Part shown: positions 15,407 to 26,470 of the stretch, piece by piece
How positions within the stretch are numbered: the first letter of the stretch is position 1
Layout: every line of letters begins with the position of its first letter
From: Burkholderiales bacterium PBB2
GTDB taxonomy: Bacteria; Pseudomonadota; Gammaproteobacteria; Burkholderiales; Burkholderiaceae_C
NCBI GenBank assembly: GCA_002255955.1
Contig: NKIM01000038.1
Span: 1 to 44,591, forward strand
DNA length: 44,591 bases
Direction of reading: 5' to 3'
Position numbers and translations under genes: made by a program
Notes under the pieces: generated by a model
What the model saw: only the letters and a program-made list of their open reading frames with translations
Databases searched by the model: none
What the model was told of the DNA's origin: nothing

Positions 15407-15474
15407 GTTTGGGTCACCTTGATTGAAGTTGCTGAGGTCAGCTTGTTGGGCAAGGGGATGAAAGAAGTGAACGA

Positions 15475-15542
15475 GTGAACAGGTGAGCGGCGCTGCGCGC
15501 CTGGTGAACCATTCACCTGTTCACCTGTTCACCTGTTCACCC
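15475..15542. repeat. 8-bp tandem repeats with an inverted copy, between pccA and epimerase
   Basis: TTCACCTG is repeated three times in tandem (15512-15519, 15520-15527, 15528-15535) and followed by the partial unit TTCACCC. Upstream, GTGAACAGGTGA (15475-15486) is the exact inverse of the unit junction, so the whole forms alternative hairpins around a GC-rich centre. Tandem 8-mers of this kind can slip in length. Functionally it could reduce read-through or stabilise the pccA 3' end. No T-tract is present. Confidence 0.8.
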
Positions 15543-24539: not shown

Positions 24540-25505
24540 ATGAGCATGAGCCGCGAGCAGCTGGAACAGGCCGCCAAAGCCTGGTGGTACTACACCGTGG
24601 AACTGGCCCCGGGCCTGATCGCACCGGGCAGCTACCCGTCCGACTTCCCCTACATGCCGCGCATGCTGATGCGCAATGCCCATCTGCACGGCCAGGACTG
24701 CCTGGACCTGGGCACCATGGAAGGCGTGATCCCGGTGCTGATGCACCGCAAGGGCGCCAAACGCATCGTCGCGGCCGACGCCGTGCCGCACTGCGCCGAC
24801 AAAATGGCCTTGCTGCAAAGCGTCTACGGTGCGAGCTGGGACTTCCGCGAAATCGGCCTGATGTACGAGCTCTCGCAGAAGCTGGCGGCCGATGGCATGT
24901 TCGATTATGTGAACCTGTCGGGCGTGCTCTACCACGTGTTCTCGCCCATGCACACGCTGGCCAGCGCCCGGCCCCTGGTCAAGAAGAACGGGCTCTTCAT
25001 GCTCTCCACCAATGTGGTGAACGAGCAGTCGGACCTGATGCACTTCAACACCGCCGGCAAGCTGCAGACCGAGCCCAACACCTTTTGGTACCCCAGCATC
25101 CCGCTGCTGGAGTACATGCTGCGCTACTTCAACTTCGCACCCATCGACTGCCTCTACAGCCGCCACCCGTCCAACAGCCCCCTGCATGTGGCGGGCAAGG
25201 AATGCGGCTTCATTTCCATCGTCTGCCGCGCGGTCGACCCCGGCACCGCCCTGCCCCCGGGCGACAGCTGGGGTCGCCACTCCATGCTGGGCAGCTGGGA
25301 ATATTTGGGCCTGTCCAAGCAGAACCACGACCCGGCCCTGCCGCCTTCCACCATCGGCTACGACCTGCCGGAGTCCCTGCAGACCATGGTCGCGCAGAAA
25401 GGCTCGATCGACCTGCACCTGGCCGTCAACGAACTGGGCCGCCGCGTCGAGCGCGCCAAGCGCGTGGAAGACACCTATCTGCTGAGGCTGATGGACGAGT
25501 CCTGA
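24540..25505 (+). CDS. class I SAM-dependent methyltransferase (CmoB/DUF1698-like)
   Basis: The start ATG 24540 has AAGGAG nine bases upstream, giving 321 residues. The core has a SAM-binding motif I (DCLDLGTMEGVIPVLM), an acidic strand-2 end (IVAADAVP) and the segment VNLSGVLYHVFSPMHTLASARPLVKKNG. This follows the pattern of CmoB-like (DUF1698) methyl/carboxymethyl transferases. The N-terminal WWYYTVELAPGLIAPG and the long C-terminal part (HVAGKECGFISIVCRAV) are not in CmoB, so tRNA modification should not be assumed; the substrate is unknown. It stands alone between the GntR gene and a structured intergenic region. Confidence 0.8.
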   Translation: MSMSREQLEQAAKAWWYYTVELAPGLIAPGSYPSDFPYMPRMLMRNAHLHGQDCLDLGTMEGVIPVLMHRKGAKRIVAADAVPHCADKMALLQSVYGASWDFREIGLMYELSQKLAADGMFDYVNLSGVLYHVFSPMHTLASARPLVKKNGLFMLSTNVVNEQSDLMHFNTAGKLQTEPNTFWYPSIPLLEYMLRYFNFAPIDCLYSRHPSNSPLHVAGKECGFISIVCRAVDPGTALPPGDSWGRHSMLGSWEYLGLSKQNHDPALPPSTIGYDLPESLQTMVAQKGSIDLHLAVNELGRRVERAKRVEDTYLLRLMDES

Positions 25506-25512
25506 TGGGGGC

Positions 25513-25530
25513 TGCCCTCGCTCGAGGGCA
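25513..25530 (+). terminator. hairpin just after the methyltransferase stop
   Basis: TGCCCTCG (25513-25520) pairs with CGAGGGCA (25523-25530), beginning seven bases past the stop codon. There is no T-tract, so it would be a 3'-end stabiliser or a weak terminator. Confidence 0.35.
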
Positions 25531-25610
25531 GGATTGCGGACGACCAAATTCAGTGGCCGGAGCCGGCACAGAGAAGCCCTTGAAGGTTGGGCTTGTGCCA
25601 AGGGGCATCG

Positions 25611-25686
25611 GGCGAGTGCTTCCGCTCATGTCCTCCGGCCTGTGCTGCGCACAGGCCTCCCCCTTTACTTCGCTTCAGCACTCACC
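25611..25686 (-). ncRNA. structured two-stem element, copy A
   Basis: Read on the minus strand, an outer stem GGTGAGTGCT/AGCACTCGCC (one G-U) encloses a 19-base strand GAAGCGAAGTAAAGGGGGA. This is followed by an inner 9-bp stem GGCCTGTGC/GCACAGGCC with a 3-base loop and a 16-base strand GGAGGACATGAGCGGA. Copy B at 25746-25851 has the same layout with near-identical 19- and 16-base strands but different stem sequences. Conserved loops with compensating stem changes point to a functional folded nucleic acid. I do not recognise the family. It could be a small RNA or a mobile hairpin unit. Confidence 0.65.
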
Positions 25687-25745
25687 TGACACCCCTTGTC
25701 AGTGCGACCGCTTGGCGTTTTCGCCGAAGGAGCAAGGCCGTGCTG
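25687..25745. other. 59-base spacer between the two structured elements
   Basis: The spacer contains two further small hairpins: CTGACA-CCCCT-TGTCAG (25686-25702, its first base shared with copy A) and CTTGGCG-TTTT-CGCC with a bulge then AAG (25711-25728). No clear promoter boxes are seen in either direction. Confidence 0.5.
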
Positions 25746-25851
25746 GATCGGGTCGGCTGGGTGCTCTGCGAAGTGAAGTAAAGGAGGAGACCCCAGCCAT
25801 AGGCTGGGGTCGGGGGACATGAACGGAGCAGAGCGCCCAGTCGGCCCGATC
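25746..25851 (+). ncRNA. structured two-stem element, copy B
   Basis: On the plus strand a 24-bp outer stem (25746-25769 with 25828-25851) encloses GAAGTGAAGTAAAGGAGGA (25770-25788). Next come an inner 10-bp stem GACCCCAGCC/GGCTGGGGTC (25789-25798 with 25802-25811) and GGGGGACATGAACGGA (25812-25827). The three imperfect outer-stem positions are all G-U pairs when read as plus-strand RNA, but A-C mismatches on the other strand, which favours a plus-strand transcript. Loop strands differ from copy A at only two positions each, while both stems differ throughout. The function is unknown. Confidence 0.68.
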
Positions 25852-25906
25852 AACAACTGATTCAGGGGCTGCTTCGTGCCGTTTCCAGCCAGCCCCAAAT
25901 TCACGC

Positions 25907-26470
25907 TCAGAGCGAGCGCGCCTCCCGGAATCCGTAAAAGCTGGCGAGCACCCGTGTTGGGAACTGGGTGATGGCTTCGTTGTAGGCGCCCACCGCTTGG
26001 TTGAAGACCTGGCGGGTGAAGGAGCGTTGGCGCTCGATCATCTTGAGTTCGTCCACCTGAGCGAACAGCTCCGGGTGCTCACGCAGCTCCGCATGGTGTT
26101 CCAGCATGGACATGAGCCGCGTGAGGGCTGCAGCATGCACGGCACTGGCCACGCCCAGGCTGGCCACCGGGTCACCGGCATAGGGACGGGCGCGCACGGC
26201 CTGCAGGGCGGTTTGCACCTCTTGCTGGGCAGCATCCAGGGCATCGAAGGTGGCCTGCTCATTGGGCAACAGGGGGCGCAGCACAGCCAGCAGCTGGGCG
26301 CAAACGCCGGCGCGTGCGCTCAAATGGGTGTCCAGCTGGGCAAAGGCCACGGCGATCGCATTGCGCAAGCTCATGACGCGGTTGTAAGCCCCGATGGCCC
26401 AGAACAGCAGCATGGCGGCCAGCCCCCAGCCCGCCCAACCCCAGCTCCAGCCGGTTTCCGTAGCGCCCAT
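25907..26470 (-). CDS. LemA family protein
   Basis: The 187-residue protein has one N-terminal membrane helix (about 10-27, WAGWGLAAMLLFWAIGAYNRV) and a helical LemA domain. This includes YNRVMSLRNAIAVAFAQLDTHLSARA and the closing NQAVGAYNEAITQFPTRVLASFYGF, which is highly diagnostic. LemA proteins are membrane-anchored helical-bundle proteins of poorly known role. It starts two bases downstream of the queC stop, so the two are probably co-transcribed, although no functional link is known. No TPM-domain partner is adjacent. Confidence 0.92.
   Translation of the reverse strand: MGATETGWSWGWAGWGLAAMLLFWAIGAYNRVMSLRNAIAVAFAQLDTHLSARAGVCAQLLAVLRPLLPNEQATFDALDAAQQEVQTALQAVRARPYAGDPVASLGVASAVHAAALTRLMSMLEHHAELREHPELFAQVDELKMIERQRSFTRQVFNQAVGAYNEAITQFPTRVLASFYGFREARSL

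Follow-up and report, generated by a model that had tools for sequence, protein, structure and literature searches.

A dispersed intergenic repeat of paired, inverted hairpins, probably selected as single-stranded DNA, in Burkholderiales bacterium PBB2 and other genera

What is the pair of inverted hairpins that lies between two genes in contig NKIM01000038.1 of Burkholderiales bacterium PBB2, and is it kept as DNA or as RNA? The window, by which we mean the whole stretch of DNA analysed (44,591 nucleotides), contains two hairpins of approximately 100 nt on opposite strands, both within a 401-base gap between an ORF ending at 25505 (+) and an ORF at 25907-26470 (-), i.e., at a convergent site. 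An earlier sequence-only reading had correctly described the gap and the twin opposite-strand copies in it. Covariance model R1 (length 100), whose training alignment of 49 sequences includes both window hairpins, scored them at 101.6 bits (25599-25698, minus strand) and 99.0 bits (25748-25849, plus strand); the minus copy is therefore longer than the 25611-25686 first proposed. Each hairpin comprises a 22-bp outer stem, internal strands of 19 nt (5') and 16 nt (3'), and a capped inner stem. The internal strands have the lengths reported before and, as also reported, differ between the copies at two positions per strand, all transitions (5' strand positions 5 and 16; 3' strand positions 3 and 12). 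The inner and outer stems of the two copies are indeed unrelated in sequence, but they are not quite fully paired as had been claimed, since the outer stem of the minus hairpin has a mismatch. The features of the locus are as follows.

25564-25881, no strand: whole repeat unit, 318 bp, the extent common to aligned own-genome copies, with edges mostly CGGCAC...GTGCCG
25564-25584, plus strand: left terminal inverted repeat, CGGCACAGAGAAGCCCTTGAA, an imperfect match to the reverse complement of the right end
25861-25881, minus strand: right terminal inverted repeat, imperfect, CGGCACGAAGCAGCCCCTGAA in minus-strand reading
25599-25698, minus strand: left hairpin (R1, 101.6 bits), which folds alone as DNA with z -5.7
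25677-25698, minus strand: left hairpin, outer stem 5' arm, partner of 25599-25620
25599-25620, minus strand: left hairpin, outer stem 3' arm
25658-25676, minus strand: left hairpin, 5' internal strand, GAAGCGAAGTAAAGGGGGA
25637-25657, minus strand: left hairpin, inner stem with C-GCA-G triloop
25621-25636, minus strand: left hairpin, 3' internal strand, GGAGGACATGAGCGGA
25699-25747, no strand: inter-hairpin spacer, which changes fast among family copies (pairwise difference 0.210)
25748-25849, plus strand: right hairpin (R1, 99.0 bits), which folds alone as DNA with z -7.3
25748-25769, plus strand: right hairpin, outer stem 5' arm, partner of 25828-25849
25770-25788, plus strand: right hairpin, 5' internal strand, GAAGTGAAGTAAAGGAGGA
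25789-25811, plus strand: right hairpin, inner stem with C-ATA-G triloop, among the non-GNA exceptions
25812-25827, plus strand: right hairpin, 3' internal strand, GGGGGACATGAACGGA
25828-25849, plus strand: right hairpin, outer stem 3' arm

The complements of the right and left hairpins gave single-stranded DNA folding z values of -5.9 and -4.0, respectively. An Rfam scan of 25300-26200 returned four matches up to E 10 and none at the gathering score, the top one being a chance match to mir-4891 (23.5 bits versus a gathering score of 100). Elsewhere in the window, a weak covariance-model match at 15470-15529 (+; 17.7 bits, E 0.042) is probably due to chance.

The hairpin pair is one copy of a dispersed, intergenic, multi-copy repeat found in many genera. 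An exact pattern matched 14 copies in the genome of strain PBB2, and the reversed control matched none. The covariance model detected 34 hairpins in this genome, 28 of which form 14 pairs, always with the minus hairpin on the left and the plus hairpin on the right (14/14); three of the six unpaired hairpins lie at contig ends (C79, C48, and C59) and three stand alone. Copies in the same genus share a unit of approximately 318 bp. Several contigs of the PBB2 assembly end inside or beside the repeat (L006, L011, L005, and L008), and a stretch of Ns interrupts one copy (L003); the repeat breaks assemblies. A scan of a genome collection detected at least 120 stretches, mainly from Burkholderiales and Rhodocyclales with a few from Xanthomonadales, and the carriers among the matches listed include Rubrivivax, Hydrogenophaga, Variovorax, Paucibacter, Sulfurisoma, Pseudoxanthomonas, and Lysobacter. 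Those stretches hold 192 hairpins, with neighbours within 300 bp in minus-plus order 65 times versus plus-minus order twice, and the covariance model supplies weaker partners for many of the seemingly single hairpins. Five other genomes that were scanned more fully contain 115 (genome G204), 50, 25, 21 (genome G188), and 12 hairpins. No similar sequence was found in plasmid and phage collections, and a text search for the loop sequence in the papers covered returned unrelated ones only. The sequence-only reading spoke of an unrecognised two-stem element; no Rfam family reaches its gathering score here, and the phrase understates the element as regards copy number and range. It had proposed an Rfam comparison and covariance-model searches of genomes, and had named in advance an Rfam hit or a lack of further copies as evidence against itself; neither was encountered, and the genome searches yielded both further copies and covarying pairs.

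Selection on a folded strand, also claimed at the outset, is strongly supported by the pairing of the stems, by the mutual information of the loop, and by a bias in the wobbles. The 49 sequences of the pairing test were collected via the loop, so that the stems were free to vary. Across 34 pairs, 95.4% of cells are standard-paired versus 66.2% in shuffles, slid versions reach at most 40.0%, and 0 of 500 shuffles scored as high on any of five measures. For the internal loop, the cross-strand mutual information of 304 position pairs is highest at 5-12, 16-3, 1-16, and 8-9, which nest in antiparallel order and are compatible with one duplex; for 5-12, 16-3, and 8-9, 0 of 2000 shuffles were as high (120 of 121 hairpins). 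As kin sequences are counted repeatedly, neither of these shuffle counts is a probability. Position pair 5-12 is C-G in 97 hairpins and T-A in 14, pair 8-9 is A-T in 109 and G-C in nine, and pair 16-3 is A/G in 92, G/A in 19, and C-G or G-C in four. The four loop differences between the window's copies fall exactly on 5-12 and 16-3: the supposed loop strands are conserved, as had been noted, and the differences within them are co-evolving pairs. In the outer stems (121 hairpins, 2662 cells), G-T occurs 234 times versus 29 for A-C, and this excess of wobbles indicates that the strand as read, the G-rich one, is the strand under selection.

There is little information in the spacer and tails across the 121 hairpins, and the internal loop contains a Y-R pair, tandem G-A/A-G, an A-T pair, and facing GGRGG tracts. 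The facing stretches Y5-G6-A7-R8 and Y9-G10-A11-R12 are arranged as is known for tandem sheared G-A pairs, which RNA too can form. A G-quadruplex built from the facing tracts was also considered as a candidate structure. An ATG start with a Shine-Dalgarno-like GGRGG in the 3' strand was considered and set aside, the T of the ATG varying with its partner (pair 8-9). Among 13 own-genome copies, pairwise differences are 0.040 for the loops, 0.063 for the outer stems, 0.152 for the tails, 0.210 for the spacer, and 0.203, about the spacer rate, for the inner hairpins. The corresponding values for 28 G204 copies are 0.038 for the loop, 0.049 for the outer stem, 0.050 for the inner hairpin, and 0.279 for the spacer. 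Compared with spacers, internal loops and outer stems therefore vary 3-7 times less within families.

The sequence-only reading left the choice between a folded RNA and a single-stranded DNA hairpin. The folded strand stands, and the choice narrows towards DNA. Readable triloops are GNA in 84 of 94 cases and TNC in none; tetraloops make up 17 of 117 loops and include one TTCG and one GCGA. RNAs usually prefer UUCG and GNRA tetraloops. Among C-G-closed triloops, GNA occurs in 68 of 77 element hairpins, and GNA or TNC in 5 of 79 control hairpins from elsewhere in the collection stretches, a comparison in which stems of at least 7 bp were required of the controls and only 4 of the element. The tip of the window's plus hairpin, ATA, is an exception to the GNA rule. 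GNA loops form exceptionally stable DNA mini-hairpins (PMC4686876). Singly detected hairpins at tandem sites, some with a weak partner, number 10 in the sense and seven in the antisense orientation. C-GNA-G tips, the lack of a clear transcription orientation, and spread as a repeat together favour single-stranded DNA, and we infer from loop type and context that this is probably the selected form.

A structured RNA, either an mRNA 3'-end element or a small RNA whose loop binds a protein or ligand and whose repeat is kept for its RNA function, is unlikely. Covariation and tolerance of G-T wobbles would suit RNA equally, and the slower change of hairpins relative to spacers within families is likewise what it would predict. 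Genomic context speaks on both sides. A simple GC3 gene caller classified 74 of 127 groups (32 lie at edges, and 21 lie inside called ORFs, some of these calls likely being false), and 73 of the 74 follow at least one gene, as an RNA at the 3' end would; however, 30 of the 74 are convergent, and at a convergent site one hairpin of the pair would be antisense in each transcript. The remainder are 43 tandem and one divergent, compared with 65 convergent, 178 tandem, and 56 divergent background gaps, i.e., copies avoid divergent gene pairs. Against RNA also stand the triloop tips, the scarcity of tetraloops, the near balance of sense and antisense hairpins at tandem sites, and the absence of an Rfam match at the gathering score.

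We consider it reasonably likely that the element is an intergenic, interspersed repeat whose unit of spread is two large hairpins, always in minus-left/plus-right order, in the manner of a REP doublet (REPIN or BIME). The lagging-strand template would be one place where the single-stranded form is exposed; the internal loop would be the recognition site of a putative single-strand DNA-processing enzyme, which would cut or copy the hairpin pair; and the 3' intergenic positions would be those where insertions are tolerated. Near-identical units in unrelated places indicate spread. A further, more tentative proposal, possible but not one we would expect to hold, is that the 19/16-nt loop with compensatory change across orders defines a separate class of mobile single-stranded DNA elements recognised by a dedicated enzyme that is not of the Y1/RAYT type.

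Neither a clean empty site nor a target duplication was found in the sites and copies compared, and by eye no target duplication was recognised in own-genus copies or in the 28 G204 copies, where the left and right CTGAnATG motifs mismatch copy by copy. At the window locus, genome G002 matches the left flank up to about the element edge and then diverges, and in genome G009 the match starts only close to the right edge. Empty CGGCA-TGCCG frames (eight forward versus one reversed in the PBB2 genome, two versus one in G009) were rejected as empty sites, as they look coding by eye. The G002 orthologue of the PBB2 site L171 also carries the element, and some copies may be inherited rather than newly moved. 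In genome G012 (L214), a diverged hairpin pair with different stems occupies the site orthologous to L173, which could mean that the pair was either inherited long ago and rewritten since or inserted independently. In the G204 genome (L258-L266 and L288-L307), the left edge is often a stop-codon-like CTGA or CTAG followed by nATGAAAC (28 copies), whereas at the other side the edge sequence ...GTCATGGAGCAACTGACATG stops at the apparent start codon of the ORF that follows on the right, which a GGAG precedes. In G204, the repeat thus appears to slot in between the genes of a single operon and could supply a ribosome-binding site.

The G012 pair would also fit a site bound by a host protein, such as a topoisomerase or a nucleoid protein (a proposal made for BIMEs), that acts at gene ends in chromosome structure with spread as a secondary matter, and the conservation of hairpins relative to spacers in two families is in keeping with this. 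It is nonetheless improbable, as the distribution is patchy, with covariance-model matches in 12 of 250 order-sample genomes (16 candidates scored per genome), and as a different insert stands in place of the pair at three orthologous sites in G009. At those sites, orthologous to L168, L170, and L172, palindromic inserts of 156, 168, and 168 bases are found instead (L200, L208, and L224); they are CAGAG-rich, unrelated to the hairpins, and lie between similar CGGCAC/GTGCCG-like edges.

Lower still we rate an ordinary REPIN moved by a RAYT (TnpA-REP, a Y1 transposase) that is present or was recently lost. An inverted doublet of strand-specific, imperfect hairpins, intergenic and in high copy number, is what such a system would give, and the PBB2 genome encodes three Y1 proteins, two scoring above the cut-off of 80 for the NCBIfam RAYT model and one just under it (82.9, 81.1, and 78.7 bits). 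In the order sample, the exact pattern occurs in 11 of 399 genomes, and PF01797 is present in nine of these 11 (absent from G204 and G347) versus 243 of the 399 overall, although eight of the 11 belong to one genus; it is likewise present in nine of 11 carriers tested (absent from G188 and G204). However, the covariance model detected no hairpins in 15 Y1/RAYT-type loci (49,350 bases), where a lax pattern matched L236 and L245 once each. G204, in spite of its 115 hairpins, has no RAYT by PF01797 or NF047646 at E 0.1; NF047646 at E 0.1 gave no match in G347; and in G188, PF01797 is absent and NF047646 matched once, weakly, at 22.9 bits, well below the cut-off of 80. Loss of the RAYT after spread is possible. 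A GT(A/G)G motif lies within 12 nt of the hairpin foot at control level (12 of 121 versus 9, 5, and 11 in control windows), and GTAG or GTGG within 6 nt in 3 of 121.

Candidates for an autonomous version with cargo, in which hairpins with long gaps enclose ORFs (L085, L248, and L249), were rejected by eye; the ORFs are ordinary looking and include no evident transposase. ORFs of at least 90 amino acids around 120 collection stretches, when clustered, revealed no evident transposase family, and the clusters inspected resemble housekeeping genes or overlapping frames. Least probable of all is a MITE-like element whose terminal inverted repeats are read by a DDE or other transposase with the hairpins as cargo: the imperfect terminal repeats around CGGCAC/GTGCCG in PBB2's own genus and the unrelated palindromic inserts between the same edges in G009 would suit it, but the ends differ between genera where the hairpins are the common part, the spacer and tails are information-poor, and no target duplication was recognised in the copies inspected.

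If the REP-doublet-like reading is true, the range of REP-like repeats would come to include carriers in the Burkholderiales, Rhodocyclales, and Xanthomonadales whose single-strand module is much larger and structurally richer than that of REPs. The element would provide a test case, dated by sequence, for selection on folded DNA, in which two position pairs within the supposed loop compensate, the tip is of DNA type, and a genome of 115 hairpins is without a detectable RAYT, and the mobilising enzyme would become a concrete search target.

How does the repeat compare with known systems? Burkholderiales-1 is a candidate structured motif from Burkholderiales, ambiguous as RNA and listed without an Rfam accession (Weinberg 2010; Table 1 of PMC2864571); the element may be this already published motif. 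With MITEs and palindromic repeats like ERIC, NEMIS, and BOX, the element has in common that it is non-coding, short, interspersed, and, in its own genus, bounded by imperfect terminal inverted repeats. It differs in that its conserved part is the inner hairpin pair rather than the ends, which are imperfect in the own genus and different or unclear in other genera, and in that its stems are rewritten with compensation across genera. The likeness to REP, BIME, and REPIN sequences is closer: these too are intergenic, imperfect palindromes in many copies, arranged as inverted doublets, strand-specific, and with an internal mismatch. The E. coli TnpA-REP requires a mismatch in the middle of the stem and acts on just one of the two strands (PMC8266576). 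The C-GNA-G tip is common to the element and some enterobacterial REPs, for which C-GAA-G or C-GCA-G tips can be read from the sequences printed in PMC2817692. The differences are that the element's units are approximately 100 nt versus 21-65 nt for REPs (range from PMC6006769), that the REP foot GT(A/G)G has no counterpart, that a long, co-evolving 19/16 internal loop takes the place of a short bulge, and that RAYT genes are flanked by repeats in REP systems, whereas the model found no such hairpin linkage at the 15 loci. The element thus acts like a REP doublet, but its foot motif, its size, and its lack of RAYT linkage at these loci place it outside the REPs proper, and an oversized REP/REPIN-like repeat is the best reading.
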